Shown in pieces: positions 2,088-21,311 of a DNA stretch of 29,008 bases. Source of the DNA: a virus. The DNA lies in IMG/VR virus record IMGVR_UViG_3300030331_001715, positions 1-29,008 of that record, one strand, 5' to 3'. Each line of letters begins with the position of its first letter. The stretch's first letter is position 1. Below the pieces are notes generated by a model. It searched no databases. It was not told where the DNA came from and worked only from the letters and a program-made list of their open reading frames with translations. The position numbers were made by a program, and so were the translations under genes.

Positions 2088-2785
2088 TATTCTTCTCCGT
2101 ACTCCATGTCACCAGCCATAGCACCAGGTGAATCACTATAGTCTCTACCACCACTTGCGGCTGCTTCTGCTGCGGCTTCAGAACTACCGTATCCACCGTA
2201 ACCTGTTTGAGAAGATTCTTGAATTGAATCTATCATACCACCTGTGTCAACACCTGTGATACCAAATTTACCTAAAACATTATCTAAATTTTTCTGGCTA
2301 AAGTTTTTACCTGCAGCACCTCTTTGTAACATGTTTGAAATTCTTGCAGCATCTCGTCTCATGTTTAATCCAAAAGGATCACCAGCTCTTGAACCTGGTG
2401 CAAAAATTCTGTTACCAGTTATACCACGAGGATTATAAAATCTACTTCCTCTAAATGTATCGCCAAGCATGTTTCCTAAACTTGTTATACCTCGAGTGGC
2501 CATACCAATCATACCACCGCCTTGTATATAATCTTTAAACATGTCGAGAAGATTACGACTTGATGTTGTATCACTTTCCATTAATTCACTATCGCTATAG
2601 TCATCGTTTACATCAAACGTTCTAATAATACCTTGTGAATCTAAATTTATATTTCTATTTATTGCTTCTCTAATGTTATCAAGATTGATAGCATCCACGG
2701 TTGCTTGATCTAATCCCATTATACCAGGTCCAGTAGGTGCTCCACCTGACATTAAAGCTTCAATAAATTCACTGTTTCTTTGCAT
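2087..2785 (-). CDS. Hypothetical late/virion protein, Gly-rich, 232 aa
   Basis: No family recognised. The protein starts with MQRNSEFIEALMSGGAP, has a central glycine-rich, weakly hydrophobic stretch (GGGMIGMATRGITSLGNMLG, about residues 90-109) that could insert in a membrane or pack as a helix hairpin, and ends in an acidic, low-complexity tail rich in Ala, Gly, Ser, Asp and Glu. Its start overlaps the stop of the 1408-residue gene (TAATG at 2785), and its stop overlaps the start of the next gene, so all three are probably translated as a coupled set. Position at the end of the ejection-protein block suggests a minor virion component. The function is not established. Confidence 0.65.
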   Translation of the reverse strand: MQRNSEFIEALMSGGAPTGPGIMGLDQATVDAINLDNIREAINRNINLDSQGIIRTFDVNDDYSDSELMESDTTSSRNLLDMFKDYIQGGGMIGMATRGITSLGNMLGDTFRGSRFYNPRGITGNRIFAPGSRAGDPFGLNMRRDAARISNMLQRGAAGKNFSQKNLDNVLGKFGITGVDTGGMIDSIQESSQTGYGGYGSSEAAAEAAASGGRDYSDSPGAMAGDMEYGEE

Positions 2786-5700: not shown

Positions 5701-7011
5701 TGTTTTTAAAGCTTTACTAGAAAAACCAGGGAAAGCTATTGACTTACCTTTTACAATATCATCCGTAGACGTAAACATAAACTCAGATATTATTTTAGAC
5801 ATACCTTCTGGGTCTTTAATTGCTTGCGCCGCGCCTCTTGTTTCTTTTGATATGGCTCTTATTGTATCATCAAAGTCTGCAGCAGCGTCCTTTGCTAATA
5901 CTTTTATAGCAGATTTTTTACCTTCTAGTTTTTGTATACCATCAAATAATTCTTGAGTTTTATTACTTCTAGATCTAAACGGTCGACCTACAAACCTGTC
6001 TACCCATCTCTCCAGCATACTATCACTGTATGTAAGATCTTTACCTTTTTGTAAAATAAGTTTACCAATCTTACCTGTGCCTACTACGGCAGGTATAATA
6101 GGAAAACCTAATTCTGCACCAAATTTTAATCTGTTCAGTAATTGTCTTTTTGCATCTTCAGCACCTTGTTCTCTTTCATTTCTATCTAATCCTGTAGGTA
6201 AAAAATCTAAAAAGTCCCAGTCACCAAACGTACCTATGTTTTCTACATCTGACACAATAAAACCTCCACCAACTCCTCCACCGATAGCAATAGCTATAAA
6301 TTTATCTTTGCCTGTAATTTTATTTAATTTATTAGCTTCTTTAACTGCTCTTGCTGCGTTTAAATTATTTGTAGTTTTTACGTATCTACCACTTTTGATA
6401 GAACTTACTAATTGTCTAACCTTTTGAGATGTTTTTGCTATTACCGGTATAGCTGTCTTTTGTGCTATCTTACCTGCACCATATAACTGACCAATTGCTT
6501 CTGTAATTTTACCAGCTGCTGTTTCTGCTGCAACATCTGATGCTGCTTGTTCTATTTTACCTAGAGTTGTTTGCTCGAAAGCTTCTGTTAATTTACCTGT
6601 TAATGTTTCATCATAGGGTATGCCTTCTTCTTGAGTTATATCATAAAGCAAAGTTCCAAATGTAACCAAACCTTTTGGTATTTTAATACCAGCACTAATA
6701 CCTGCGCCAGTCAAAGATTCTACAAGAGATACATCTTCGTCTACTTCTTTACCTTGTACTTTGTCTATGATTTTACTGAAGCCTCTTACTGTTTCTTCTG
6801 TAAGGGTGCCGGTAATATTATCTTCTGATAATATACCCTTTTCTTTTAGAGTATCTAAGCCAATGGGCTCTTCTCTTTCCTCTAATTCTTTTATAACTTC
6901 TGTTGTGTCTTGTAATTGTAAATCTTTATCTTTGACTACTTCATCAACGACTTCTTCGTTTTCATCTTCTATTATAATAGAGCCGTCCGGTAGTTTGAAT
7001 GTATCAGACAT
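2785..7011 (-). CDS. Very large candidate internal virion/DNA-ejection protein, 1408 aa
   Basis: The largest gene in the window. The N-terminus is strongly acidic (first about 50 residues, many Glu/Asp), with two glycine-rich hydrophobic segments (about residues 238-253, FIAIAIGGGVGGGF, and about 298-312). Long helical Lys/Glu-rich stretches fill the centre and C-terminal half, and a Pro/Ala-rich linker precedes the end. I see no catalytic motif such as a transglycosylase EGG or peptidase signature. Size, helical content, membrane-like segments and position after the nozzle gene resemble the internal proteins that podoviruses such as T7 (gp15, gp16) eject into the host envelope; I infer that role. 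A tape measure is less likely because no long-tail genes are present. AAAGGAG lies just before the ATG. Confidence 0.7.
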   Translation of the reverse strand: MSDTFKLPDGSIIIEDENEEVVDEVVKDKDLQLQDTTEVIKELEEREEPIGLDTLKEKGILSEDNITGTLTEETVRGFSKIIDKVQGKEVDEDVSLVESLTGAGISAGIKIPKGLVTFGTLLYDITQEEGIPYDETLTGKLTEAFEQTTLGKIEQAASDVAAETAAGKITEAIGQLYGAGKIAQKTAIPVIAKTSQKVRQLVSSIKSGRYVKTTNNLNAARAVKEANKLNKITGKDKFIAIAIGGGVGGGFIVSDVENIGTFGDWDFLDFLPTGLDRNEREQGAEDAKRQLLNRLKFGAELGFPIIPAVVGTGKIGKLILQKGKDLTYSDSMLERWVDRFVGRPFRSRSNKTQELFDGIQKLEGKKSAIKVLAKDAAADFDDTIRAISKETRGAAQAIKDPEGMSKIISEFMFTSTDDIVKGKSIAFPGFSSKALKTFTEAMEKLGVSKQSIKKIVNDSTAFRNTTAGLKSLISASKNVTVGTEKLNKILNERIKNQLSVDYKIIDDNRGLFNGFRPAAESIKEVAQVLQRYARANRKTLDDETANKLVTDITKNAFKDKTTGALVFDIGEQSALADKAVQRVNIGKYITTGKFKPDGAGGLIQTKSDLQAFKDLFGEYRNAQKGIYAVASELGETIARDKFYQTLLDDSNRIAAAIKQGNPDVIRGQIGRPIFFKNYNDAVVSLPNQTISKTPLSLKTALPDTIYKSPLDGYFTTVPYGEAIRIGDAVAGSALTRSAIYRALMLIPKGLSQAAKTILGPFTHARNFFSSMFTTIHRGNILIPPGKIVEFLNRSRKSVQPQLLYRMTGNPKYRNAPPDQALYRFLLEEGVTNQNIVARELEGIFSDITQLRTANMTTDKWFNKILNTGTRKFKRLYDVAQDLYTAEDDLFRVYNFLAEYYKLDNAFNVAIKKGIKDATGKVVTQATKPTDLELMKEAAKIVRETVPNYAYVSDFVKGVRRSPLGSFAAFPAEIYRTGVNTTTRALFEIKDPIRKQIGFNSLVGQAATYTAIPVIATEAFRLLYGITRDQVNALREVLPTWSEDNTILPVYENGKYKYIDFSHGFFYDTMIEPVQTTLSTVQRDLDKPLVPLLLDSMVKSTGKIFQPFIQESIWIGTVLDIFARKGKTKEGRQIWNERDEPGDKFSAAIEYAAKELSPGSREQLIRLYKALTDQTVKGTKYEIPDELMGLFGFRKVPVNLEKTLNFRIQEFNRDTRSERNLIFADTRTGDPVKDDNIIIKQFVKANQQRYETYSKMRRLYDAVKVLGMRDKKIGEEFADRNALRLYGFIENNRFDPFNVSSDVIAAYAKESEERDIPNPLNRRVLKKLEKMRKDMSKLKLNEEFNIDVEKYLLPEADTSMVPPLPETPAPNVSVAQAAPNTMTTGLTPVEQALLSEEEKMILLKDRGMA

Positions 7012-10442: not shown

Positions 10443-10606
10443 TAATTTAAAAAGAAGTTTTGTGCGTCTACTTCATCCTTTAGTTCTTGTTGATACGTTG
10501 TGTTTAATTTTTGTATTATACTGTCAAGATCTCTTACCTGTGCATCAGCAACATCTTGACTATATTCTCTAGCAGGTCTTGTTAATATCTGTACTATCTT
10601 TGCCAT
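10442..10606 (-). CDS. Small hypothetical protein, 54 aa
   Basis: A 54-codon gene encoding MAKIVQILTRPAREYSQDV followed by a helical Gln/Asp-rich segment and ending in QNFFLN. The helix (about residues 14-48) has amphipathic spacing and could form a coiled coil. Both ends overlap neighbours by TAATG: its ATG shares bases with the stop of the 711-residue gene (10608-10604), and its TAA overlaps the next start (10444-10440). This, plus the lack of any other gene in the 165 bases, makes it a real gene. It may be a small assembly factor or tail component. Function unknown. Confidence 0.72.
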   Translation of the reverse strand: MAKIVQILTRPAREYSQDVADAQVRDLDSIIQKLNTTYQQELKDEVDAQNFFLN

Positions 10607-12741
10607 TATCTTCTACCGTCTGGTTGTATATCTAATCTAAATCCACCTAACTTCCAATTCTGTTGTGCAGCCGTATTTGCTATTTTTAAAGATACAGCTC
10701 TGGCTCTAGCCCTAGTGTCTACTTTAGTTGTTGATGAACTAATTGTAAAAGGTCCAAGAGCAGAACTTGCTTGTGAGTCATTAGAATAATTTCTTAATTG
10801 TAATGTAATCTGTGTGTTACCAGTTTGAGATACAAAGTCTGGTATAAATCTTCTTATCTTTGCAAAGAACTCACCATCACCGCCTTGACTAATATCAAAG
10901 TCTCCTGACTCTATGTTAGAAGTTATTGCTGTTGTCGCTGTGGTTGTTACTTGATCTGTGCCGGTTTCATGCTCGTAGTATATTGTACAGCCATCGGTGT
11001 TGCCAACAACATCATAAGAGTTGTTAGAGTCAGCGTCATAATCTGTAGCATGTGGCTTGCCGAATACAGCAGAGTCTTGCCATGTTGTTCTATCTAACGT
11101 GCTTGTAGTCCAAACAGGTCTTTGAGGTGTAGACTCAATATAATTATAAGTTACACATCTATCTATGACTGTTGCACCAGAAGAAGAATAGAACCAATTA
11201 ATTTCACCAAACAAGTTATTGATTCCAGCATTGATAAGTTGATTAGCTGTTGTATTTAAATCATTGTAAACAAAATCTTCTACTAAACATGGTAATGATT
11301 GTAGGGCACCAGCATATTTAAAGAAACCATTTTCTGAAAACCAATACGCAGCACCGTCTACCTCTACTGCAGCGTTCTGACCTATCAATCCACAGTTTGT
11401 ACCTACCTGTGCAAAACCAAAAGTAAAAGGCGGTCCAATAAATCTTTGTGTAAATAAAGCAGTATCAGTCCAAACGTAAATAGCATCACGACCTCTAACC
11501 GCTCCCATAATTCTAGATCCGTCTGCAAGTCTTTGTGTACCAGCAGTGTTGGTAGCCGTTGGTGTGTAAGTGTTAATATCCTCTTGGTTAGAGAATCTAA
11601 TAAACATTTCGTCTTGTGTGCTTGGTGTTCCTATTGTGGTTTCTGTTCCAAAGAACACTAAGTGTCTATCCGGTGTAGATACAATCATGTCTCTTGATGC
11701 AGTTGGCGCACCAGATATAATTGTGGCTCTTGTTGTCGTTGCGTTAGCAGCGTTTGAGTCCCATTCAAAAACAGGACCATTGTGTATCAATGCAATAATT
11801 TTATCACCAAAGTTATCAATAGACCAAAGGCCTGGATCAATTACCAAGTCACCAGATGCAGCCTCGCCCCACGCTACGAAGTCAGAACTGTTTGTAATTG
11901 TTGCACCGTTGGAATGTGATGCAGCTGTCGTGCCTCTCGTTCCTCGTGTCACGCCTGTTAGTGTACTGCCTGAGATCCCTGTGTAAGATATTTCTTCTGA
12001 TCCTATCTGTATGTGATTTGTACCTGTTGTTGGAAAGTTGACAGCGCTTGTTAAAACAATGGTTGTTGTAGATGCATCGATAGCTCCATTCAAAGTCGTT
12101 GTAAGTGCGTTAGCTACTGTACCACCAAAAGAAGCTAGACCCCAACCGAATCCAGGTAACTGTTCTGCAGGTCCAACTGAATAGTATGATTGTACTCTGA
12201 TGCCTCCAGAAGCTGTTGCACCTGATCCTGTTTCAGCTGATGGCATTGTGATTGTTAGTGTTAAGTTAGTTGGTGTTGAAGTCACCATAAATTTTTTGTC
12301 ATCAAAATCTGATGCTGAGTAATTAGAATTTGTAATTGCTGTAAAATTATCTAATAAAATTATATCGCCTGGTGCAAGACTGTGACCAGAAGCAAAAGTA
12401 ATTGTTACAACGGCAGACCCGTTAGTTGTTGTAAAAGCGTTTGTAAGAGATGTTGTAGCTTCTATAGGATGTATGTCGTAAAAGATACCACCTGAGTATG
12501 CATATAAAATCCTGTTTGTGCCTATAATTGAAAATTTTTGACCACCTCTGTTTACGATATGGTGCATAGCTCTTGCAGCTCCTGTTAATTTATTATTACC
12601 TAATTGCTGCCAACCACCTATTTTTTCAGGTGTGCCATATCTAAATCTAACATTATCTCCATCAACCCATTGGCCCTCAGCCTGGGTGTCTGTGATCTGT
12701 TTATTAAAACCAGGTAAAAACTGTACTTTTTGCAATGCCAT
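10606..12741 (-). CDS. Probable tail nozzle/tail tubular (stabilisation-type) protein, 711 aa
   Basis: A large beta-rich virion protein. The N-terminus holds WVDGDNVRFRYGTPEKIGGW (residues 25-44), a motif I associate with nozzle or stabilisation-type proteins of marine podoviruses (functional analogues of T7 gp12 and P22 gp10), followed by many short strands consistent with a propeller. Around residues 214-286 an extra beta module containing QIGSEEISYTGISGS and GVTRGTRGT looks inserted; this Gly/Thr-rich unit recurs in phage tail proteins. The C-terminus (NWKLGGFRLDIQPDGRR) is strand-like. The assignment rests on motif memory and on its position before the ejection genes. The Shine-Dalgarno sequence is weak. 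It is separated from the adaptor and neck genes by the accessory cassette, which is unusual. Confidence 0.72.
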   Translation of the reverse strand: MALQKVQFLPGFNKQITDTQAEGQWVDGDNVRFRYGTPEKIGGWQQLGNNKLTGAARAMHHIVNRGGQKFSIIGTNRILYAYSGGIFYDIHPIEATTSLTNAFTTTNGSAVVTITFASGHSLAPGDIILLDNFTAITNSNYSASDFDDKKFMVTSTPTNLTLTITMPSAETGSGATASGGIRVQSYYSVGPAEQLPGFGWGLASFGGTVANALTTTLNGAIDASTTTIVLTSAVNFPTTGTNHIQIGSEEISYTGISGSTLTGVTRGTRGTTAASHSNGATITNSSDFVAWGEAASGDLVIDPGLWSIDNFGDKIIALIHNGPVFEWDSNAANATTTRATIISGAPTASRDMIVSTPDRHLVFFGTETTIGTPSTQDEMFIRFSNQEDINTYTPTATNTAGTQRLADGSRIMGAVRGRDAIYVWTDTALFTQRFIGPPFTFGFAQVGTNCGLIGQNAAVEVDGAAYWFSENGFFKYAGALQSLPCLVEDFVYNDLNTTANQLINAGINNLFGEINWFYSSSGATVIDRCVTYNYIESTPQRPVWTTSTLDRTTWQDSAVFGKPHATDYDADSNNSYDVVGNTDGCTIYYEHETGTDQVTTTATTAITSNIESGDFDISQGGDGEFFAKIRRFIPDFVSQTGNTQITLQLRNYSNDSQASSALGPFTISSSTTKVDTRARARAVSLKIANTAAQQNWKLGGFRLDIQPDGRR

Positions 12742-12759
12742 AGGTTATTTATACAATTT

Positions 12760-13329
12760 TTAATATCCCCACGCAACAAGTGAATATCTCGTTCCTTTTG
12801 TGACTGGGTGCACAACGTGTGGAAATAAGAAGTTTGAGGGAAAAACTAATAGGTCTCCGGCTTTTAGGGTTAGTTTTTCACCGTTCATAATAAATTCTCC
12901 ACCTTCATAATCATCATTTAATAGACCTACAAAAGACAGCACTGGGATGCCTTTTTCTTGACCATCAAAAATACTGTAAATATGATCTACGTGTTCTCTC
13001 ATAGTCAAACCTTTTTCATAAATATTAAATCTCATTTTACTAAATCTAGATACAAGAGGTTGACCCCTAAACTCTTCTGGAACTTTTGTTTGAGTGTATT
13101 CATCAACAGCTTTCTTAATAACTGGTTGTATCATGCTTTGTTGTAATTCAGATGACCATACAATATCAGGTTCTTTATCTGGATAGCTGTATCTTTCATC
13201 AGTGTCAAATGTATACCAATGATGTTTCTGCTTTTCTTGTTCTTTTATGTTCTGAATAAAATTCTTACAAATTGTATCATCAATAACGTTCGTTATTAAT
13301 ACAAAATCATTTACGCTTGTCTTAGCCAT
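12760..13329 (-). CDS. 2-oxoglutarate/Fe(II)-dependent oxygenase (P4H-like), 189 aa
   Basis: A jelly-roll dioxygenase of the prolyl-4-hydroxylase-like group: such enzymes use O2 and 2-oxoglutarate to hydroxylate a substrate. Numbered from the ATG at 13329, the metal triad is H113-x-D115 (motif REHVDH) with distal H171 (FPHVVHPV), and R181 in KGTRYSLVAW is the expected 2-oxoglutarate anchor; GGEFIMNGE and KAGDLLVFPS are typical strands. All essential residues are present. A TTG at 13338 would add three residues and has a better placed GGAGG six bases upstream, so the start is uncertain. The gene overlaps the end of the halogenase gene and is the last of the accessory cassette, 18 bases before the nozzle gene. 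The substrate is unknown. Confidence 0.88.
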   Translation of the reverse strand: MAKTSVNDFVLITNVIDDTICKNFIQNIKEQEKQKHHWYTFDTDERYSYPDKEPDIVWSSELQQSMIQPVIKKAVDEYTQTKVPEEFRGQPLVSRFSKMRFNIYEKGLTMREHVDHIYSIFDGQEKGIPVLSFVGLLNDDYEGGEFIMNGEKLTLKAGDLLVFPSNFLFPHVVHPVTKGTRYSLVAWGY

Positions 13330-14474
13330 GTTACCCAATTGTTACCTCCAAAAAAGTTATATTGACTGTTTGTATAATTTAAAGGTTCTTTCAACTTATT
13401 CTTATAATAGTCCATCTGAACAGGTCTTTTTATTTTTCTAGCTTCTTGCCAAAACTTCTCTGTTCTATCGTTTGCTAAATAATGCATAGCAATAAAATCT
13501 ATTGACTCTTCGTAAAAAGATTTAAGTATAGAGTTATACAAACCTCTAGTTGCTTGTGTATGATATCCTGATTCTGTTAATTTTACAAATTGATAAGCAC
13601 CCTCCATAGCTAACGCTAGTCCTGTGCTTTCTAATGGTTCAATAAAACCACCAGATAAACCTATCCTAATCACATTGTTTTTCCAAAGTCTTGGTTTGTA
13701 GAAAGGAGTCCAATCTATCACTTTTCTAACTTCTGGTCTGTTATCCCAATGTTTTAAAAAAATTTCTTTTGCTTCATCAATTGGTGTGATGTCTTTATTA
13801 AATACAATACCTGTTCCTATTCTAGTTCGTATTGGAACTTTCCATATCCAACCACAAGATACAGCTTCACATACAGTATAGTTTAATCTTTCAGAATCAT
13901 CTTTGTATTGAACAGGTCCTGCAATAGCTGTATTACAAATTAATCTATGAGACAGATCCGTTTCATTTGTAACTTGTAATAAAGATTGAAATCCTGTGCA
14001 ATCAATAAATACGTCAGCATAGATTGTTTGGTTCTCACACATTAAATAATTTTCCGATTGACCTATAACAGTGTCTTCTATAAATTTTACTTTTAATTTA
14101 CTCTTAATAAATTTTGCTAACTTCAAACAATCAACATGAAAACCATTAGGTGCGTTAACGTCTAGTTCGTCTAGCTTTCGCATAGGGTTCATAACAAACG
14201 GATGCCATACATGTTTTTGTGTTGTCCAACCAGGAAACAATATACCTGTTTTGTATGTAGCATCACATGCATCAAACCATTCTTGAAAATCAAAGCCACA
14301 TGCATTCATGTAACCAGCAAAGTTTATAAGAGTTGCTTCTCCTACACCAATAGGTGAGCCACCTGGTTTATCTACTACTGCTACATTGTAAGAAGTGTTG
14401 TTGGCAATATAAGCTGCAGCCAACATTGCAGATGAACCTCCTCCAACAATCACAACATCTTTTATTTCTTTCAT
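13311..14474 (-). CDS. Flavin-dependent tryptophan-halogenase-like protein, 387 aa
   Basis: FAD-binding N-terminus: GGGSSA at 11-16 (the GxGxxG loop with Ala in the last position) and GVGEAT at 43-48. K75 (ATYKTGILFPGW) aligns with the catalytic Lys of tryptophan halogenases. WIWKVP (209-214) is the family's WxWxIP motif with Val for Ile. IEPLESTG (278-285) carries the catalytic Glu (E282) and the chloride-site Thr-Gly. The enzymes oxidise chloride, bromide or iodide with FADH2 and O2 and halogenate aromatic substrates; a viral example, cyanophage VirX1, is known. At 387 residues it is shorter than the usual 500-540, mainly through a short C-terminal part, so the substrate site must differ. 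No flavin reductase is visible here. Its ATG overlaps the preceding stop by four bases. Confidence 0.87.
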   Translation of the reverse strand: MKEIKDVVIVGGGSSAMLAAAYIANNTSYNVAVVDKPGGSPIGVGEATLINFAGYMNACGFDFQEWFDACDATYKTGILFPGWTTQKHVWHPFVMNPMRKLDELDVNAPNGFHVDCLKLAKFIKSKLKVKFIEDTVIGQSENYLMCENQTIYADVFIDCTGFQSLLQVTNETDLSHRLICNTAIAGPVQYKDDSERLNYTVCEAVSCGWIWKVPIRTRIGTGIVFNKDITPIDEAKEIFLKHWDNRPEVRKVIDWTPFYKPRLWKNNVIRIGLSGGFIEPLESTGLALAMEGAYQFVKLTESGYHTQATRGLYNSILKSFYEESIDFIAMHYLANDRTEKFWQEARKIKRPVQMDYYKNKLKEPLNYTNSQYNFFGGNNWVTWLRQA

Positions 14475-14980
14475 TTTCTTAAATCGTAATTTAAGTTTAG
14501 TACATATCTAAATGTAGCATCTGTTTGTTGAACGCTTCTATGTTGTAAAGAAGCAGGAAATGTAATTAAAGTATTTGCTTCACTCTTTATAAAACCTTCG
14601 TCTTTAAATTCTGTTCCGCCATTATTTGTGTTGTAATAAAACACAGACGTCCATCTATCTTTAGTCTTTTCTACATCAGTATGCCATGCAGATTTTCTAG
14701 GTTCGTTTTGATTTACTAATAAATTTAACCTAGCTCTAAATAATTTATTCATACTAATTTTTAAAGCAAAAGGTATAATTAGATCTTGAAAGTGTTCACT
14801 AGTAATTTTTTCTTCGTTCATACAAATATGACAAAACATATGTTCACCCTTTAAAGGTTTGTCTTGATTTGCTTGATAGTTTCTAGCGTACCAAGGAAAA
14901 TAAGATCCGTTAAATAATTCAAATGCTTTATCTAAATCTGCTTGTTCTAAAAAGTTTTTCTGTATTTTAATTTTTGACAT
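14471..14980 (-). CDS. 2-oxoglutarate/Fe(II)-dependent oxygenase, 169 aa
   Basis: A compact dioxygenase of the PHM7/P4H-like fold. Metal ligands are H100-T-D102 (AWHTDVEK) and H147 (FPASLQHRSVQQTD), with R158 in FRYVLNLNY as the expected 2-oxoglutarate anchor; NNGGTEF marks the turn after the third strand. All three ligands are intact. It lies between the two halogenase genes and overlaps both (14 bases at the start, four at the end), so it is expressed with them. An oxygenase next to a flavin halogenase suggests successive oxidation of the same substrate, but this is inference. It is related to, but clearly different from, the other oxygenases of the cassette. Confidence 0.87.
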   Translation of the reverse strand: MSKIKIQKNFLEQADLDKAFELFNGSYFPWYARNYQANQDKPLKGEHMFCHICMNEEKITSEHFQDLIIPFALKISMNKLFRARLNLLVNQNEPRKSAWHTDVEKTKDRWTSVFYYNTNNGGTEFKDEGFIKSEANTLITFPASLQHRSVQQTDATFRYVLNLNYDLRK

Positions 14981-16442
14981 GTAAGTTTTTTATATATTCT
15001 TTGTGTGACATCTTTCTTATAAGTTCTGTTTTATTTCGCAAGATTATACCATTTTCAATATTTTTTTCAAACCAATAATCATCTAATTTTTTGTTGATAT
15101 ATTCATAATTTTCTTTGAGTTTTTTTAAATCTATTAAGTTATTAAAATATGCTATCAAATTAAAATTAGCTTCTTTAAATAGAGAGAACCAGCTATATGA
15201 TCCTATCAGTTCTAGATCTGTGCTTTTCAATAATTTACCTTGTTTCCATACATCTAACATTTGTTGTAATGTTTTTGATGGTTTGACTTTTTTAACATCT
15301 TTCCAAAAAGGTGAGTCTTCTTTATCTGTAATGTAGTGTAGTTGAATAAAGTCTTTAATGTTATTCATTATAATTTCAATATGTTTATTGTATGTGTTTA
15401 TAGAAGTAGGAGTATAGTCTTCTAGATACTGCATTAATAAAAACGATTGTTGTATAGTTGTTCCTATGGAAGTTGCTTCTAATGGTTCTACAAAGTTAGC
15501 ACTTAAACCAACAGCAACACAGTTCTCTATCCAAACTTTATCTAATCTACCAGGATCATATTCTATATGTTTTGCTACTTGTATTTTTCTACCTAATAAT
15601 TCTTCAACTTCTTTAACAGCTTCATCTTTAGAAATATAGTTTTTATCAAATACATACCCATTACCTGTTCTACCATAAGTTGGTATCTGCCACATCCAAC
15701 CAGCTTTCATAGCTTTTGATAGTGTCCATATATTATACTCGTCTTGATCTTCTGTTGGAAATGCAATGGCTGAATTAGTTTTTAACCATGGTGAATAAGA
15801 TACCCATTTTGCTCCTAGCTGCCCGATAAGAATTTTACGAAACCCAGTGCAGTCAATATAAAAATCAGATTGATATTTTTGTTTCTTGCCTTCGATACTT
15901 GTAATTTTTTTATCTATGTTTACTTTTGTAATTTCATCGTCAACAATTTTTATACCAGCTTCTTTAGCTAGTTTAGTTAAGTATTCATTTAATTTAAACG
16001 TGTTAAAATGATATTGAACTAAGTCTCCTGTTGTTCCTAGATCAGGCTCAAGCTTATTTTCAAAAAAACATTTAGGCACAAAAGCTATGGACTCACGTTT
16101 TGATGACATAAGATATTCATAGTTACGATGACTGAGACCTAGCATCTGTTGCCATTGAGATTGTATGTGATGTAAGTACAAAGGGTGATCGGAGTTCCAA
16201 TCTTTAAACATAATACCAGACTTTAAAGTTCCACAAGTTTCTTTTAAAAAAGTTTCTGCAGGTATACCTAAGTGTTCTCTAAAATCTTGAAAGTGTTCTG
16301 TTGATCCTTCTCCTACTCCTATGATTCCAATACGAGAAGGTATGACCATAGTAATAGAGATAGGCAATCTTTTCTTCAAGGTCAAAGCTGTTATAAAACC
16401 AGCTGTTCCTCCACCAACTATTGTTAAACTATTTACCTTCAT
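14967..16442 (-). CDS. Flavin-dependent tryptophan halogenase, 491 aa
   Basis: The better conserved of two halogenases. It has GGGTAG (10-15, FAD dinucleotide-binding loop), GVGEGST (42-48), catalytic K74 (CGTLKSGIMFKDW), an exact WxWxIP motif WMWQIP (249-254), which in the family blocks mono-oxygenation, and FVEPLEATS (317-325) with catalytic E322. The last motif has Ala-Thr-Ser where PrnA has Ser-Thr-Gly at the halide site. Length is near the family norm. It would halogenate an aromatic (indole, phenol or similar) group using FADH2, O2 and a halide; in seawater bromide or iodide are possible besides chloride. The substrate is unknown. It overlaps the genes on both sides by 14 bases. The C-terminal 140 residues are Lys/Asn-rich and specific to it. 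Confidence 0.92.
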   Translation of the reverse strand: MKVNSLTIVGGGTAGFITALTLKKRLPISITMVIPSRIGIIGVGEGSTEHFQDFREHLGIPAETFLKETCGTLKSGIMFKDWNSDHPLYLHHIQSQWQQMLGLSHRNYEYLMSSKRESIAFVPKCFFENKLEPDLGTTGDLVQYHFNTFKLNEYLTKLAKEAGIKIVDDEITKVNIDKKITSIEGKKQKYQSDFYIDCTGFRKILIGQLGAKWVSYSPWLKTNSAIAFPTEDQDEYNIWTLSKAMKAGWMWQIPTYGRTGNGYVFDKNYISKDEAVKEVEELLGRKIQVAKHIEYDPGRLDKVWIENCVAVGLSANFVEPLEATSIGTTIQQSFLLMQYLEDYTPTSINTYNKHIEIIMNNIKDFIQLHYITDKEDSPFWKDVKKVKPSKTLQQMLDVWKQGKLLKSTDLELIGSYSWFSLFKEANFNLIAYFNNLIDLKKLKENYEYINKKLDDYWFEKNIENGIILRNKTELIRKMSHKEYIKNLHVKN

Positions 16443-16884
16443 AGAATCCTGTTAACATATATCTTGTTCCTTTTTTTATTTTACTAACTCCGTGTAGATA
16501 AAACTTTCCATCAAAAAACACCATGCGTCCTAATCTAGGTTTGATAAGAGTCATGTCCTCAAAGAATAAATTACCGCCAACGTAGTCAGTGTTTAGAAAC
16601 GCAACAGAGCTTAGAGTTGTTTTTTCTTTAAATGTATCAAAGTGTAAGTCTTTGTAAGAGTCTTTTGGCCATTCAACAACTTCCATATAATCTATTTTAG
16701 AATTGTTCATATCTTCAGATACCTTGTTAATCCTTTCTCTATATTTTGCGTCTAATATTCTTTGAACTCTTAGTACAGAAACATTGTACATGGGTTCTAT
16801 AAATTGACTAAATTTTTTTCTAAGATCAATTAATTCTTTGCACTCATCTTCAGTAAAAAAATTATCGTATATTCTTATTTTCAT
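16429..16884 (-). CDS. 2-oxoglutarate/Fe(II)-dependent oxygenase (P4H-like), 151 aa
   Basis: A short prolyl-4-hydroxylase-like dioxygenase. Ligands are H81-F-D83 (DLHFDTFKEK) and H131 (KFYLHGVSKIKKGTRYM), with R141 as 2-oxoglutarate anchor; the strand VGGNLFFED between them is characteristic. The N-terminus IYDNFFTEDECKELIDL is the usual opening helix of the family. The motif set is complete, so it is predicted active despite its small size. Its ATG lies inside the nucleotidyltransferase gene (23-base overlap), and its end overlaps the halogenase start by 14 bases. The substrate is unknown; hydroxylation of a protein, sugar or small molecule are all possible. Confidence 0.87.
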   Translation of the reverse strand: MKIRIYDNFFTEDECKELIDLRKKFSQFIEPMYNVSVLRVQRILDAKYRERINKVSEDMNNSKIDYMEVVEWPKDSYKDLHFDTFKEKTTLSSVAFLNTDYVGGNLFFEDMTLIKPRLGRMVFFDGKFYLHGVSKIKKGTRYMLTGFYEGK

Positions 16885-17212
16885 TTCTTATTTTTGTGGC
16901 AGAAATCTCTTCTACTTTAGATGGTAATTTTATTTCTTCTATGTTGTAACCTACATCTCTACCATAACAAATATGTGTAACATTAGGAACTCTTATAACT
17001 TCAAACATACCTCTATATTCTCTAAGTCTTTTTATAATTTTTCTTCTTACAGTTTTAAATGGATATGGATTGTTATCACCATCACAATCTCTAACCATGA
17101 TTACGACTTGTCCTGTTCTTTCTAGTATCTTTTTAAAAAGCTCAAAATGACCTTCGTGAAAAGGTTGAAACCTACCTAGCATCTGCGCTGTTGGTTTTTT
17201 ATAATTTATCAC
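16862..17212 (-). CDS. HxGH-type nucleotidyltransferase (cytidylyl/adenylyltransferase-like), 116 aa
   Basis: A Rossmann-like nucleotidyltransferase. GRFQPFHEGH (13-22) carries the HxGH signature (H19, H22) that binds the nucleotide triphosphate phosphates, and EISATKIR (102-109) is the variant ISSTxIR motif near the C-terminus. The family transfers an AMP or CMP group to a small phosphorylated or sulfated substrate; NMN adenylyltransferase, glycerol-3-phosphate cytidylyltransferase and ATP sulfurylase share the fold. At 116 residues it is nearly minimal. It follows an APS-kinase-like gene and a sulfotransferase with which it overlaps, so a role in activating a group for transfer is suggested. 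Its exact substrate cannot be read from sequence. Confidence 0.82.
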   Translation of the reverse strand: MINYKKPTAQMLGRFQPFHEGHFELFKKILERTGQVVIMVRDCDGDNNPYPFKTVRRKIIKRLREYRGMFEVIRVPNVTHICYGRDVGYNIEEIKLPSKVEEISATKIRNENKNIR

Positions 17213-17579
17213 GAATCTCCTTTATTACATCTTGATAATCAAAGTTTGTAATTTCAAAATGACAGTGTGATGGTTTTTCGAACATCTTGTTTGTATCATC
17301 AAATCTACCTTTCTTAATTGTGTTCATCCAAACTCTTACATCATACTCAAGTCTGTCTTCGTCAAACGGACAAATAAAATCTATAACACAAGGTCCATCA
17401 ACTAAAGACGATAGACATCCCATTCTTTGAGCTTGTCTCGTTCTACCCTCTGCAGAAAAATCCCAATCGTTAAACATCTTTCTAACCTCGTCAGCATTAA
17501 AGTAAGCATAACCTGCAGACAGCTGTCTTGCAAAGGTTGTCTTACCTGATCCTGGTAATCCAAAAACTAATATTCTCAT
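17199..17579 (-). CDS. APS-kinase-like P-loop kinase, 126 aa
   Basis: The P-loop is GLPGSGKTT (7-15). The following segment YFNADEVRKMFNDWDFSAEGRTRQAQRMG (26-54) resembles the 'DGDnvR.gl...lgFs..dR.enirR' region of adenylylsulfate kinase, including an Asp (D30), an Arg (R33) and the FS..R turn. APS kinase makes the sulfate donor PAPS from APS and ATP, and a PAPS-type sulfotransferase gene directly precedes it, overlapping by four bases, which supports this reading. It is shorter than usual (about 126 against 175-200 residues), and the C-terminal part diverges, so a different small-molecule kinase is possible. It also overlaps the nucleotidyltransferase by 14 bases. Confidence 0.8.
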   Translation of the reverse strand: MRILVFGLPGSGKTTFARQLSAGYAYFNADEVRKMFNDWDFSAEGRTRQAQRMGCLSSLVDGPCVIDFICPFDEDRLEYDVRVWMNTIKKGRFDDTNKMFEKPSHCHFEITNFDYQDVIKEIRDKL

Positions 17580-18355
17580 ATTACATCTGCCTTTTCATAT
17601 TGTTTTATAACATCTAGTGGTAAATATTTTTCTATCTCATAATCTATTTTTTTTACAGAGTCCGTTCTAATATCATGTAAACCTTGATGTGGTATACCAT
17701 CTAGTAAGTGATCATAATACTTTACTTTTTTCATTTCATATTGATCAAGATTTGTTGTTCGCACTCCTTCAAAAGGACAACCAATATACTCGTTTATTTT
17801 TTTGACAGTGCCTACAGGATCAGTAACAATATCATTATATGTAATTAATAAATGATCTTCGTTCTCTACAATTTCTTGAGACGAATGCATGGCTTGATAC
17901 ATGGCGCCACCTTTAGCCATAAGTATATTACATCTTAATGATGTAGTAATTTGTCTATCTCTCCACGGTGTTTCAACTCTCATTAGTGAAGCAAGACATT
18001 CTAATACTGGACGATGTATTACTATAAACTTTGGTTTCTTATCGTAGAAGTCTAACATAGTTCTGTTTCTCTCTAATCCCCATGGTCCTCTTTCTAAAAT
18101 ATATTCTGCATTTGTAAACTTATCGTAATACAGATTAAACACTTCTGATACTACATTGTCATAAGCTTCTTCAGCAGGAAAATTTAAATAAATTGAGTTG
18201 TAGGTTTTGTGATATAATAAGCTATCTAGAATTAATAATACTTGTGATTGTGGAGTAAAACAAATATTTTTATTTTGATGTAACAAAGAAGCTAATAAAG
18301 TTTGACCGCTTCTTGGCATTGAACTAACAAAAGTATATTTCTTTTTTAAAAGCAT
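17576..18355 (-). CDS. P-loop sulfotransferase (PAPS-type), 259 aa
   Basis: The N-terminal TFVSSMPRSGQTLLASLL (8-25) is the 5'-phosphosulfate-binding loop (PRSGxT, with Gln at the variable position). IHRPVLECLASLMR (113-126) is the 3'-phosphate-binding motif with R115 and S123 at the usual eight-residue spacing. The rest is helical and about the length expected of a bacterial or phage sulfotransferase. It would transfer sulfate from PAPS to a hydroxyl or amine; the acceptor (sugar, tyrosine or small molecule) is unknown. No signal peptide is present, so it acts in the cytoplasm. The start lies ten bases inside the preceding oxygenase gene, and the stop overlaps the APS-kinase-like start as ATGA. 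Confidence 0.9.
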   Translation of the reverse strand: MLLKKKYTFVSSMPRSGQTLLASLLHQNKNICFTPQSQVLLILDSLLYHKTYNSIYLNFPAEEAYDNVVSEVFNLYYDKFTNAEYILERGPWGLERNRTMLDFYDKKPKFIVIHRPVLECLASLMRVETPWRDRQITTSLRCNILMAKGGAMYQAMHSSQEIVENEDHLLITYNDIVTDPVGTVKKINEYIGCPFEGVRTTNLDQYEMKKVKYYDHLLDGIPHQGLHDIRTDSVKKIDYEIEKYLPLDVIKQYEKADVI

Positions 18356-18852
18356 TTTATATTTCCTGATAGTATTAATCTTTCGGTATCTTTATTGTAA
18401 CCTACGCTATGTGGTATATACGAAGGAAACAAAACAATCAACCCTGGTTTTGGTTTTACCTCTTTACCTTTCCAATTAATTAATGGGTGTGCTGGTCCAT
18501 AAAATATTGTCTTTGAAGAGTTATCAGTTACTTTTAAATATAAAATAAAAGAATACCAATTTTGTTCTGATCCATGAGTATGTAAATCATGGTAATCTTG
18601 TTTGCCATATTTTTGAACCCACCAAGTATCTAATTTAAATTTACGATTTAAGATCTCGTTTATGTGTGGTTCTATATAATTATATATAGTTTGTGTTTTA
18701 GCTTGATCATGAAAATCTTTATCAAAAAAATTGTTTGAGTTTTGTTCGTATTTTTTTAAATTAGTGTTCTCTAACATTGACACAAATTTTTTATCTAAAG
18801 GTATTGTTTTTAAATATATAGTTGATTCAAATTTTAAATGTTCAACTGCCAT
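18346..18852 (-). CDS. Putative 2OG-Fe(II) oxygenase-family protein, 168 aa
   Basis: A jelly-roll protein of the group typified by 'HxH...lFPsxlxHxV...R'. DYHDLHTHGSEQNWYSF (86-102) contains H91-T-H93, distal H148 is in LFPSYIPHSVGYN, and R158 (ERLILSGNI) is the anion anchor. The acidic ligand of classical oxygenases is replaced by His or lies elsewhere (D89), as in the TIGR02466/PF13759-like family, so oxygenase activity is likely but not certain. The start overlaps the next oxygenase-like gene by 19 bases and the end overlaps the sulfotransferase by ten. Three genes of this type lie in a row here and are probably ancient duplicates. Confidence 0.78.
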   Translation of the reverse strand: MAVEHLKFESTIYLKTIPLDKKFVSMLENTNLKKYEQNSNNFFDKDFHDQAKTQTIYNYIEPHINEILNRKFKLDTWWVQKYGKQDYHDLHTHGSEQNWYSFILYLKVTDNSSKTIFYGPAHPLINWKGKEVKPKPGLIVLFPSYIPHSVGYNKDTERLILSGNIKCF

Positions 18853-19430
18853 AAACCTTGTTCATCTCCTATCTTTCCTTTTAAATAAGTATTGAAAGCT
18901 AAACTAATTCTTTCTTTTTTATCTTGTTTTGTAGCTACATGGTGACTTAGATCTGATGGAAATATAATTATATCTTGATTACTTACAGGAAAATAAAAAC
19001 TTTCAGAGTTATAATCGTTATACTCTGTAGCAACTAATCTAATATCAGTTCTTAATTCTTTGTTAAAATATATTCTATCTACTTTTGGATCTACATCTAT
19101 GTAGTAAACTCCAGATATAAAACTATTAGGGTGTTCATGTTTATGATGTTGTTCTGTTTGTTTTGTCCAATTAAACCAAGACTGTGTCATAAAAATTTCA
19201 ATAGATAAATGCATAGCTAAAGTATGATAAGCATATCTTCTAATATGATTCATTACTTCTTTCTTTAAACTTTCAAATAAAGGTAATTCTAATACATAAC
19301 TATTTAAACTAGACTTGTTAAAAGTATTACTTTTCTTTTCACAATTTTGCAAAAACTTCATTTGTTCTTTATTTAAAGTATAAGAAGTATTCTTAAAATA
19401 TATTGGTGTCATGAACAAGTTTCGTATCAT
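18834..19430 (-). CDS. Putative 2OG-Fe(II) oxygenase (PF13759/TIGR02466-like), 198 aa
   Basis: A good match to the 'putative 2OG-Fe(II) oxygenase' family common in marine viruses. QSWFNWTKQTEQHHKHEHP (83-101) and the strand NSFISGVYYIDVD give the W.N...H.HP.S..SGVYY signature with ligands H98 and H100. IIIFPSDLSHHVATKQ (154-169) supplies H163, and KERISLAFN supplies R174. The set is intact, so it is predicted active; its substrate is unknown. An AAGGA sequence sits eight bases before the ATG, inside the end of the upstream gene. It overlaps that gene, its degenerate paralogue, as ATGA. Confidence 0.85.
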   Translation of the reverse strand: MIRNLFMTPIYFKNTSYTLNKEQMKFLQNCEKKSNTFNKSSLNSYVLELPLFESLKKEVMNHIRRYAYHTLAMHLSIEIFMTQSWFNWTKQTEQHHKHEHPNSFISGVYYIDVDPKVDRIYFNKELRTDIRLVATEYNDYNSESFYFPVSNQDIIIFPSDLSHHVATKQDKKERISLAFNTYLKGKIGDEQGLWQLNI

Positions 19431-19930
19431 ATCATTATTCCTTCGCCTTTATCTATTGTCTCCATTATTTTAGAAGTTCCTATACCTTCAAACATAATTT
19501 GAAAGACAGTAAACTTTTTTAAACCTCCAGTTACATTTTCAAAATCATAATTTAAATAAGAAGGAAAAAGCATTATCTCATTCGATCTAATATTAAACCA
19601 CCAAGCCTCAGAGTTATATAGATTGTAGTTAGATACGTGTGGTTTGATATGTTTATATTTAGTTTTTAAAAAATGTATTTTATCGTTTTCATCAACTTCT
19701 TGAAAAAATATTCCTGATAAATAACTATTATAATTTTTATAGTATTCACGATTGCTTTTAGTTTCTATATTTTTAAATCCAACTAAAGTTGGTTTTATTG
19801 TTGGGTGAGTTTTTAATATGTTTTTGTAATAATTAGATGCATGCTCTAAAGCAATTTTTTTATCAAACCTATTTAATAGTTCTGAATAAATTCCAGTTGG
19901 AAATATTTCAATAATACTTTCTTGTGTCAT
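19427..19930 (-). CDS. Degenerate 2OG-Fe(II) oxygenase paralogue, predicted inactive, 167 aa
   Basis: Aligns by eye with the next gene. YNSYLSGIFFQEVDENDKI (67-85) matches PNSFISGVYYIDVDPKVDR, and YNLYNSEAWWFNI with NEIMLFPSYLNYDF (102-130) match the corresponding C-terminal strands. The metal positions have changed: the two His of the HxHP motif are Tyr64 and Asn66, the distal His is Tyr128, and the anion-binding Arg is Lys139. With no ligands left it is unlikely to bind Fe(II), yet the frame is full length with no stop or frameshift, so it is kept for another role, perhaps as a partner of the active copy. It is the first gene of the accessory cassette, 29 bases after the tail-fibre block. 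Confidence 0.75.
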   Translation of the reverse strand: MTQESIIEIFPTGIYSELLNRFDKKIALEHASNYYKNILKTHPTIKPTLVGFKNIETKSNREYYKNYNSYLSGIFFQEVDENDKIHFLKTKYKHIKPHVSNYNLYNSEAWWFNIRSNEIMLFPSYLNYDFENVTGGLKKFTVFQIMFEGIGTSKIMETIDKGEGIMI

Positions 19931-19941
19931 AAAACACCGAC

Positions 19942-19970
19942 ACTATATACTATTATAAATTATGAATCAA
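19942..19970 (-). promoter_or_regulatory. Candidate promoter for the accessory enzyme cassette
   Basis: On the minus strand TTGATT (19970-19965, 4 of 6 to -35) and TATAGT (19947-19942, 5 of 6 to -10) are 17 bases apart. The -10 ends only 11 bases before the ATG at 19930, so the transcript would be almost leaderless. A perfect TATAAT also lies at 19957-19952 without a good -35. The site overlaps the end of the preceding tail gene and would let the cassette be expressed apart from the tail operon. Sequence-only inference in AT-rich DNA. Confidence 0.4.
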
Positions 19971-20400
19971 TGTGCTCTACCCAACCTTTTGTATTGTCAG
20001 ATTGATAGAGTGCTTCGTCCCAAGTGTATGTTTTATTGATAGCTTCTTGTTCTTCTGGTGTTGGAAAATCTCCTGCCCATGCCGGTGGGTTAGGCATAGC
20101 GATAGGTGGTTCATATTTTTTTGTAGTTGAATTCCAAGCCCAAGAAGGAAAAAGTTGAGGTGGAACAAAACCACCTTTTGCTTCATCATACACGTAACCA
20201 TCACCAGGATAGTATCCAGTGTTGTCATTCCATGAACCAGTTGGTCCTTTATGACATTCTTTTAATTGTGTGCCGTTATTGATTTTTACAGTTTTCTTTA
20301 AGAAAGCAACACCTGCTTCTTCTGTAGGAGCATCAGTATCACTAACTGTATATACATTGATAACAACGTTACCAGAATTTATGTGAGCAAAATATTTCAT
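19960..20400 (-). CDS. Tail-fibre-associated small virion protein, 146 aa
   Basis: The protein begins MKYFAHINSGNVVINVYTV and contains GYYPGDGYVYDEAKGGFVPP (62-81), then Pro/Trp-rich turns (QLFPSWAWNSTTKKYEPP), ending in an acidic stretch. This 'PGDGYVYDEAK..FvpP.PfPSW' pattern recurs in small proteins next to tail fibres of cyanophages and other marine phages; I do not know a proven function. It has no enzyme motif and no signal peptide. The start overlaps the stop of the Gly-rich adhesin-like gene (TAATG), which suggests a coupled role such as fibre chaperone or tip subunit. The cassette follows directly after. Confidence 0.7.
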   Translation of the reverse strand: MKYFAHINSGNVVINVYTVSDTDAPTEEAGVAFLKKTVKINNGTQLKECHKGPTGSWNDNTGYYPGDGYVYDEAKGGFVPPQLFPSWAWNSTTKKYEPPIAMPNPPAWAGDFPTPEEQEAINKTYTWDEALYQSDNTKGWVEHIDS

Positions 20401-21311
20401 TATGCTTTGTACGTCCCCGTTGAAGTGTATTTAACAATAGTGTTACCACCACTTGTTGTCACTGTTGGTGATCCTGTTGTTACACCTGAGTAACTTGAAG
20501 TTGGAATACTTAAAACAATAAGTCCGTCTCCACCTTCACCACCTGTTGGGTTTGAAAATTGTTGACCTTTAGCGCCGCCTCCGCCGCCACCTAATCCGTC
20601 TGTGCCAGCACCGCCGAGTTGAGATCCTCCTGGGCCGCCGCCTCCGCCGCCACCACCTGCAGGTCCATGACCTGGGTTTGCACGACCTCCGCCGCCGCCA
20701 CCGCCAGCGTATTGAATAGATGAACCTTGGATAGAACTTGATTGACCGCCACCGCCGCCACCAGCTGTGTAGTTCGGTCCGTTACCTCCAGGAGATCCTG
20801 AAGAACCGCCGCCACCGCCTCCGTGACCACCAGTATAACCACCTGGTCCGCCGCCGTTAGCTCCTTGTGATGGAGATGTAGATGGAGTGTTTCCGCCACC
20901 TGATGGACCGTTGTTCCAAGCGCCTCCGCCTGCACCACCGTTTCCACCTGCTGAAGAAGGAGATCTTACAGAGTCAGGGCCACCGCCTCCTCCGTAGCCG
21001 CCACCTGTGCTAGTGAATGTTGTGATTTTAGGTCCAGAAACTACACTATCATTTCCTATAACTGCAGAGTTACCATTAATAGATGTTCCGCCTCCAGTTG
21101 TTGTTCCGCCAGTTCCACCTGTGCCAACTGTTATTGTGTAATTTCCGCCTGTGAAAAAACTTAATGTGGTTGTTCTCATTCCGCCGCCACCGCCGCCGCC
21201 GTGACCACCGCCACCGCCGCCACCGATAACTAGCATTTGTACATCATAAGGTGCACCTAAACCACCTCCTGAGCCAAAACCGAGTGTTTTGTATCCGAAT
21301 CCTGTTGCCAT
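20400..21311 (-). CDS. Poly-glycine tail adhesin/fibre protein, 303 aa
   Basis: By my count 119 of 303 residues (39%) are Gly. After MATGFGYKTLGFGSGGG and a short strand (VQMLVIG) come blocks of five to nine consecutive Gly separated by short His/Asn/Ser/Pro turns, up to about residue 260, then two beta strands at the C-terminus. The block MLVIGGGGGGG and its repeats match the glycine-rich domain of phage receptor-binding tips (poly-Gly II helices, as in T-even gp38-type adhesins), so host recognition is inferred. The DNA is locally much richer in GCC/CCG than its surroundings. An AAGGAG sits before the start, and the stop overlaps the next gene. Glycine-rich tracts are prone to slippage and rearrangement. 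Confidence 0.78.
   Translation of the reverse strand: MATGFGYKTLGFGSGGGLGAPYDVQMLVIGGGGGGGHGGGGGGGMRTTTLSFFTGGNYTITVGTGGTGGTTTGGGTSINGNSAVIGNDSVVSGPKITTFTSTGGGYGGGGGPDSVRSPSSAGGNGGAGGGAWNNGPSGGGNTPSTSPSQGANGGGPGGYTGGHGGGGGGSSGSPGGNGPNYTAGGGGGGQSSSIQGSSIQYAGGGGGGGRANPGHGPAGGGGGGGGPGGSQLGGAGTDGLGGGGGGAKGQQFSNPTGGEGGDGLIVLSIPTSSYSGVTTGSPTVTTSGGNTIVKYTSTGTYKA

Follow-up and report, generated by a model that had tools for sequence, protein, structure and literature searches.

A candidate tail-adhesin modification module in a marine phage: eleven overlapping tailoring-enzyme genes exchanged together with a glycine-rich adhesin pair

Introduction

Clustered 2OG-Fe(II) oxygenase genes have been described in HTVC023P-type pelagiphages, where they were considered auxiliary metabolic genes and reported with a "ferrochelatase" partner (Wittmers et al. 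2022, PMC9599517). That work does not draw a link to an adhesin, and its main text mentions neither a halogenase nor a sulfotransferase. The cassette analyzed here belongs to the same viral group and occupies the same region between tail-fibre and nozzle genes, but it comprises eleven genes and adds halogenation and sulfation families. The original prediction, that no described system has such a composition, was nearly right, except that clustered 2OG oxygenases had already been published (PMC9599517). Neither the adhesin link nor the halogenase/sulfation set was found in the literature searched, and searches on tail-fibre hydroxylation and on halogenase plus sulfotransferase in phages returned nothing relevant.

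For its own collagen-like proteins, Mimivirus encodes a 2OG-dependent lysyl hydroxylase, L230, together with glycosylation enzymes (PMC5802723, PMC9546862). The likeness would lie in a virus encoding modifying enzymes for its own proteins; the difference is that Mimivirus is a eukaryotic giant virus whose system involves collagen and sugars, whereas here we deal with a bacteriophage, a glycine-rich adhesin, and predicted halogen and sulfate families. The T-even gp38 tail-tip adhesins (S16, PP01) carry glycine-rich motifs that flank hypervariable receptor-binding loops, according to an excerpt of PMC12892980 that does not mention modifying enzymes for gp38. As far as that excerpt describes it, the layout is shared by the glycine-rich protein encoded upstream of the cassette (GLY). 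However, GLY differs in that its profile had no match among PDB sequences and its best Foldseek match in the PDB is the Bxb1 tail-tip protein, a weak one (E 1e-3).

2OG oxygenases and halogenases occur widely among marine phages; the literature that we found treats them as metabolic genes or gives them no native role. If the adhesin were modified, such enzymes would become part of host recognition, with a nameable and directly testable substrate in the neighbouring glycine-rich protein.

Organization and conservation of the cassette

The window is the whole 29,008-nucleotide stretch analyzed (IMG/VR virus record IMGVR_UViG_3300030331_001715), from a marine phage whose kin are the pelagiphages HTVC023P and HTVC027P. 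Its minus strand carries, at 12760-19930, eleven end-to-end overlapping ORFs that encode six oxygenase-fold proteins, two flavin-dependent halogenases, a sulfotransferase, an APS-kinase-family kinase, and a small HxGH nucleotidyltransferase. Families were assigned with Pfam and PHROGs profiles. The cassette fills the slot that separates the nozzle gene from a glycine-rich adhesin pair (19960-21311):

NOZ, 10606-12741, minus strand: nozzle/stabilisation-type tail protein (PHROG_3287, 4e-110), downstream module border
OX1, 12760-13338, minus strand: 2OG-FeII_Oxy_3 protein, PKHD-like (Pfam 4e-12), HxD...H...R intact
HAL1, 13311-14474, minus strand: short flavin-dependent halogenase (PF04820, Trp_halogenase, 4e-67)
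OX2, 14471-14980, minus strand: 2OG-Fe(II) oxygenase (2OG_3 5e-4, PHROG_274 3e-35), HxD...H...R intact
HAL2, 14967-16442, minus strand: flavin-dependent, tryptophan-type halogenase (PF04820, Trp_halogenase, 1e-97)
OX3, 16429-16884, minus strand: 2OG-FeII_Oxy_3 protein (Pfam 8e-10), HxD...H...R intact
NT, 16862-17212, minus strand: minimal HxGH nucleotidyltransferase (CTP_transf_like, PF01467, 1e-6)
KIN, 17199-17579, minus strand: short APS-kinase-family P-loop kinase (PF01583, 23.2 bits against a cut-off of 21.1)
ST, 17576-18355, minus strand: sulfotransferase (Sulfotransfer_3, PF13469, 7e-15; PF00685, 5e-8)
OX4, 18346-18852, minus strand: 2OG-FeII_Oxy_5 protein (Pfam 2e-10), HxH...H...R
OX5, 18834-19430, minus strand: 2OG-FeII_Oxy_5 protein (8e-21; TIGR02466 above cut-off), HxH...H...R
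OX6, 19427-19930, minus strand: conserved pseudo-oxygenase of the 2OG_5/PHROG_81 fold, first gene of the cassette
F19960, 19960-20400, minus strand: small Trp/Pro-rich adhesin partner (PHROG_7759), co-inherited with the cassette
GLY, 20400-21311, minus strand: tail-tip adhesin, glycine-rich (39% Gly), its core of polyglycine type; putative substrate
F21321, 21321-22565, minus strand: conserved tail-module protein (PHROG_31104, 1e-67), upstream module border

The ORFs and profiles thus confirmed the eleven overlapping minus-strand genes and the families first proposed for them. Starting from OX6, neighbouring cassette ORFs overlap by 4, 19, 10, 4, 14, 23, 14, 14, 4, and 19-28 bases, the range of the last depending on a TTG or ATG start, so that no intergenic room is left for a precursor or scaffold gene. 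None of the eleven genes encodes a scaffold enzyme, carrier protein, precursor peptide, or transporter, which counts against a natural-product gene cluster. A promoter scan found the same number of sites as in shuffles.

The same gene order, searched for in viral metagenome contigs, recurs on about a dozen of them from different metagenomes. The cassette genes evolve under purifying selection: of five pairs tested, the four closer ones gave dN/dS 0.03-0.25. The cassette is therefore more than a chance arrangement, and the original prediction of a linked unit stood up, as linkage and conservation were found rather than independent scattering. The idea of one obligatory pathway acting in sequence did not. 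Related cassettes can lack HAL2, the kinase, or the nucleotidyltransferase, and the slot carries other mixtures elsewhere, of very variable composition (carbamoyltransferase, methyltransferase-like, cupin), so the cassette looks more like a mix-and-match repertoire.

Catalytic motifs of the encoded enzymes

All six predicted 2OG-Fe(II) oxygenase-fold proteins have the fold, but the first gene (19427-19930) has lost the iron ligands. Alignment of OX1, OX2, and OX3 with their relatives showed conservation of the iron triad (HxD/E...H) and of the 2OG-binding Arg, except in a diverged extra OX1-type copy in contigs L182/L187; dN/dS is about 0.03-0.07 for OX3. OX4 and OX5 have HxH in place of HxD, a pattern identical in the 2OG_5/TIGR02466 relatives examined. 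OX6 is homologous to the OX5 family (HHalign 4e-38) and matches only the PHROG_81 profile (3e-8; Pfam 0.015). Every metal ligand is replaced in OX6, the ligands being likewise absent in most first-gene homologues, and dN/dS is 0.15-0.25 in closer pairs. Judged by its sequence, OX6 would be an oxygenase-fold member inactive as an oxygenase.

HAL1 and HAL2 score 227.5 and 327.9 bits with PF04820, whose curated cut-off is 21. Their catalytic Lys and Glu (K75/E282 in HAL1, K74/E322 in HAL2), which we take to be equivalent to K79 and E346 of PrnA, are invariant in alignments of relatives. HAL2 matches both the GxGxxG (GGGTAG) and the WxWxIP (WMWQIP) motifs; HAL1 has GGGSSA, with the third Gly replaced, and WIWKVP, which is WIWKIP in most relatives. 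The structure model of HAL1 shows an FDH fold (mean pLDDT 69), and its nearest solved relative by sequence is the cyanophage halogenase VirX1 (PDB 6qgm, 1.6e-48). The two share the PF04820 family and the conserved Lys and Glu; however, the VirX1 chain has 531 aa against 387 aa for HAL1, and HAL1, a predicted halogenase, sits in a multi-enzyme cassette adjoining an adhesin. OX2 lies between the halogenases in every checked cassette holding both, and a 58-59% diverged HAL1 lineage occupies the same slot. Both halogenases also weakly match, far below cut-off, QhpG, LodB, and GoxB, maturases whose substrates are protein residues. A pattern-based search of 84,980 bacterial and archaeal genomes returned a single HAL1 homologue, on a viral contig inside a MAG, and a bacterial origin of HAL1 was rejected accordingly.

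ST has the family profile and the 5'-phosphosulfate loop (PRSGQT-type; PRTGQT or PKSGQT in some of six relatives) of a PAPS-dependent sulfotransferase and is predicted to be one; its nearest homologues were found only inside this cassette. KIN has a GLPGSGKT Walker A motif, generic AAA models score equally well, and it does not reach the NCBIfam apsK cut-off (20.3 against 138.7). A homologue in contig L262 (2.5e-12) scores 47.5 with PF01583. NT is closest to archaeal NMN adenylyltransferase (PDB 1f9a, 8.5e-7), and the ATP sulfurylase family PF01747 was absent for NT and sub-threshold (E 0.085) for its homologue in contig L186. Because NT is not ATP-sulfurylase-like by Pfam, we rejected a PAPS synthetase reading of the KIN/NT pair and tentatively kept only its kinase half. 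An NT-type domain is fused to a kinase in PHROG_10255.

Exchange of the cassette with the adhesin pair

Among 30 related contigs picked by their nozzle gene, without reference to the cassette, 26 hold tailoring enzymes in the slot. HTVC027P, HTVC023P, and 023Pt_psg01 carry oxygenases in the same place, with tail-fibre genes on one side and the nozzle gene on the other; their NOZ homologues, and that of DSL-LC04, are 44-52% identical to ours. Other cultured phages that have the slot are HTVC008M and cyanophage S-H38. F19960 comes after the glycine-rich gene in most slots. GLY also matches phage glycine-rich proteins in BFVD and, below threshold, the Gly_rich_2 profile.

Cassette similarity tracks the adhesin (rho 0.43, p 2e-4; partial 0.44), a signal that comes mainly from the HAL1 clade, as the correlation is 0.08 (p 0.24) once a single member stands for that clade. 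It also tracks the partner F19960 (rank correlation 0.50) and is independent of the nozzle (0.04) and of the upstream tail gene F21321 (0.03). The cassette and the adhesin pair are thus exchanged jointly, and the tail genes on either flank vary independently of them. Contig L186, with 54% identity in the nozzle and 69% in the adhesin, has the same full cassette, and contig L018, with 93% and 50%, has a different one. This co-transfer could be explained by physical proximity alone.

A separate survey used the partner protein as its sole seed. In it, tailoring genes made up 38 of 344 genes at most two genes from the adhesin pair versus 2 of 665 elsewhere; 29 of the 33 oxygenases fall in one 50%-identity cluster, so the independent cases are about five plus one of ST-KIN. 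Tailoring genes are interleaved within the adhesin/partner pair in contigs L262 (GLY-ST-KIN-F19960) and L221. Contigs with collar-type or other fibres have oxygenases too.

Proposed adhesin modification and alternative explanations

A mobile module for tail-adhesin modification, in which the cassette supplies the enzymes and GLY and F19960 form the other half, is in our view somewhat probable. As the cassette travels with the adhesin between phages, its probable use is the modification of the protein with which the phage contacts its host. A virion protein, a host glycan, or a small metabolite had been proposed as the target, and the genetic evidence favours the virion protein, specifically the adhesin pair upstream of the cassette. 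From this linkage, the most likely targets of the enzymes are amino-acid side chains in the tail-tip adhesin.

The substrate, the reactions, their order, and their benefit are what we infer. Cassette genes would be translated together with the tail genes, and the freshly synthesized adhesin would receive hydroxyl groups on its side chains from the 2OG oxygenases. The halogenases would add a halogen to aromatic residues, which in viruses with a HAL1 cassette may be the single loop Trp. ST might sulfate Tyr or an oxygenase-made hydroxyl, with the APS-kinase-like KIN, and perhaps NT, helping to supply PAPS, and the ligand-less OX6 could be a non-catalytic partner. Adhesin loops modified in this way would show altered adhesion or receptor recognition.

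The cassette might instead modify the host surface, an outer-membrane protein or glycan, for example by blocking re-adsorption of progeny or competitors. An adhesin and enzymes concerned with the same receptor would be expected to travel together, so this explanation also predicts co-transfer and adhesin-dependent repertoires, and glycans are common substrates of sulfotransferases and of NodU-like carbamoyltransferases, the latter encountered among slot or cluster genes. We nevertheless regard it as unlikely, since the cassette has no glycosyltransferase or export component, tailoring genes sit inside the adhesin/partner pair in the two contigs mentioned above, and a late tail-operon position would be more in keeping with virion proteins than with early changes to the envelope. 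The variable composition of the slot and the published view of the oxygenases as auxiliary metabolic genes (PMC9599517) agree with a tolerant insertion hotspot, from adhesin to nozzle, that collects such genes without functional relation to the adhesin. This appears improbable given that slot contents are confined to tailoring chemistry contig after contig, under purifying selection and with a fixed gene order, and that similar clusters adjoin tail genes in unrelated phages, among them two myovirus-like contigs. Moreover, slots with SPRY/DUF7483 fibres, which lack the glycine-rich pair, hold no tailoring genes (0/3 versus 47/50, p 9e-4, small numbers).

A biosynthetic route by which a small metabolite or host cofactor receives halogen, hydroxyl, and sulfate groups seems distinctly improbable to us, although this halogenase family usually uses free tryptophan or other small aromatics. 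VirX1, a viral member of the family, iodinates diverse small substrates in vitro, according to the title of a 2019 Nature Chemistry paper cited in PMC10452541, and protection against antibiotics was proposed in older reviews (PMC2984593). Against a metabolite stand the missing scaffold, carrier, transporter, and precursor genes, for which the overlaps leave zero room, and the confinement of HAL1 homologues to viral sequence in the genome search.

Adhesin modification, if true, would provide a source of enzymes that halogenate, hydroxylate, or sulfate a folded or folding protein, this substrate being encoded next door, and would add a post-translational layer of host recognition that is not described in the literature found. 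A broader possibility, which we hold tentatively, is that marine phages diversify their host-binding adhesins not only in sequence but also by chemistry, with interchangeable tailoring sets, co-inherited with a glycine-rich tail-tip adhesin, adding hydroxyl, halogen, and sulfate to it.

A candidate target residue

HAL2-type halogenases often accompany Trp-free adhesins, so Trp cannot be the target in every case. HAL2-only adhesins have no Trp at the loop position seen with HAL1 cassettes, and the HAL1 set is one lineage; on both grounds the adhesin Trp was ruled out as a general halogenase target. In HAL1-cassette viruses only, the loop Trp is a lead: a variable loop holds the sole Trp of GLY, residue 132 (20916-20918), and all scored adhesins of HAL1 cassettes have one Trp in the same loop.

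Composition of the cassette

The window covers 29,008 of the 30,078 bases in one viral record. The original prediction placed eleven overlapping minus-strand genes, including six for oxygenase-fold proteins, between the tail genes; all eleven were recovered, each overlapping the next, and the six comprise five recognisable 2OG-Fe(II) oxygenases and one remote oxygenase-fold protein. Family searches also identified two tryptophan-type flavin halogenases, one sulfotransferase, an APS-kinase-family kinase and a small HxGH nucleotidyltransferase. Tail genes also lie upstream of the cassette, whose surroundings are as follows:

20400-21311: glycine-rich protein (GLY), upstream of the cassette
19960-20400: small partner of the glycine-rich protein (F19960), upstream of the cassette
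12760-19930, minus strand: the eleven-gene cassette
10606-12741: nozzle/stabilisation-type tail protein, downstream of the cassette

Elsewhere, a 1408-aa protein without a PHROG match (2785-7011, minus strand) sits where related phages have their large ejection/structural protein.

OX1-OX3 retain HxD...H...R, and OX4 and OX5 carry HxH...H...R, as do the subfamily relatives examined. The first cassette gene is still homologous to OX5 despite its ligand loss, which is total in three close homologues and extends to most ligands in the remaining ones. In HAL1 and HAL2 alike, the catalytic Lys and Glu are intact; the short HAL1 is closest to VirX1 and shows a halogenase fold when modelled. PHROG_10255, a fused phage protein, combines the kinase and nucleotidyltransferase as its two halves. 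As the fused form occurs in Stenotrophomonas phages (L014:3599-4330, L015:3608-4345) with no sulfotransferase annotated nearby, the two may also serve some purpose other than sulfation. On one related contig (L182:5459-5938), the OX3 frame follows the kinase and opens with residues from the N terminus of the lost nucleotidyltransferase, likely an in-frame deletion scar.

Conservation of the gene order

The coupled unit proposed in the original prediction was borne out in viral metagenome contigs: a dozen others, some truncated, carry a HAL1 homologue at 70-74% identity, and all share the same neighbourhood and order. This order runs GLY, F19960, two to four oxygenases, sulfotransferase, an optional kinase and nucleotidyltransferase, then OX3, HAL2, OX2, HAL1, OX1 and nozzle. 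HAL2 is absent from two cassettes (L180/L181); OX2, seemingly missing from five contigs, was present on re-examination. A more distant HAL1 lineage (58-59%) occupies the same slot between adhesin pair and nozzle gene with a smaller gene set, and the sulfotransferase's close homologues turned up in this cassette only. Of five pairs compared, the four closer ones gave a dN/dS of 0.03-0.25 for cassette genes, the ligand-less first gene included, and of 0.19-0.73 for adhesin and partner; in the fifth, which is more distant and near saturation, some genes had higher values.

The closest tail proteins belong to pelagiphages HTVC027P and HTVC023P and phage 023Pt_psg01, which carry three to five oxygenase genes (annotated or detected) between the tail-fibre genes and the nozzle gene, with no halogenase or sulfotransferase in that region. 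Given these resemblances in tail proteins and region, the host is likely SAR11. Oxygenases of the HTVC023P-type group have been published as auxiliary metabolic genes (PMC9599517). Their reported partner in these phages, the PHROG_2954 'ferrochelatase' (L023:4804-5529 and 29 further slot proteins), had no Pfam match in the one member tested; its family consensus shows the pattern HxD...H and weakly resembles the oxygenases at profile level, and it may itself be a misannotated oxygenase-fold protein.

The slot is a tailoring hotspot. Among 30 contigs with a complete slot, retrieved by the nozzle protein alone, 26 carried oxygenases, seven of them also a halogenase and two a sulfotransferase; a NodU-like carbamoyltransferase, a methyltransferase-like protein and a cupin were further occupants. 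Tailoring genes were present in 47 of 50 dereplicated slots bearing the glycine-rich pair (a set biased in halogenase frequency, as it includes halogenase-selected contigs) and in none of three with SPRY/DUF7483 fibres. Larger clusters, with up to four halogenases and about ten oxygenases, lie beside glycine-rich or tail-fibre genes at L105:2510-21027 and L151:4000-18095.

Linkage to the adhesin pair

Across 33 contigs, cassette similarity followed that of the adhesin (rho 0.43, permutation p 2e-4; partial correlation 0.44 when nozzle and upstream tail gene are controlled for) and the partner (0.50), a cassette-adhesin signal that comes from the HAL1 clade and falls to 0.08 (p 0.24) when this clade is cut to one member. 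It did not correlate with similarity of the nozzle (0.04) or upstream tail protein (0.03), which correlated with each other (0.63). The best example is contig L186, where the nozzle is distant (54%), the adhesin is the nearest to that of the window (69%) and the full cassette is the same. Contig L280 (NHDJ01000130.1), filed under a Verrucomicrobia MAG, is apparently the same viral contig as L184, with the same length and match, and is probably misbinned.

In a separate survey of 80 contigs, retrieved with the partner protein as sole query, 38 of the 344 genes lying no more than two positions from the adhesin or partner were tailoring genes, as were 2 of the 665 genes elsewhere. Most came from a single unit that recurs, in the order adhesin - small protein - OX5-type oxygenase - partner, and the independent oxygenase clusters numbered about five. 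This four-gene unit, seen in many phages (L221:7124-10363 and similar contigs), consists of a glycine-rich adhesin, a conserved 84-aa small protein (PHROG_21526), the oxygenase and an F19960 partner. Contig L262 has the order adhesin - sulfotransferase - APS kinase - partner. On two contigs with myovirus-type tail genes, halogenase and oxygenase clusters adjoin tail-sheath, tail-fibre-assembly or baseplate-fibre connector genes.

Possible substrate

Because the order is conserved and the cassette co-transferred with the adhesin pair, because insertions occur inside this pair in other phages, and because there is no scaffold or transport gene, the simplest account has the cassette enzymes acting on the adhesin or its partner. 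From the genetic evidence, we lean slightly towards this reading; the cassette-adhesin linkage itself is held far more firmly.

GLY is 39% glycine, with variable loops between glycine-rich motifs, a layout like that of gp38 tail-tip adhesins (PMC12892980). Modelled with AlphaFold at moderate confidence (pLDDT 65, pTM 0.70), it matched phage glycine-rich proteins in BFVD and, among solved structures, weakly matched the Bxb1 tail-tip protein best. In adhesins of HAL1 cassettes the only Trp lies in one loop (GGAGGGAWN), and every HAL2-only adhesin aligned lacks Trp at this column; this association, seen in one lineage, may serve as a lead.
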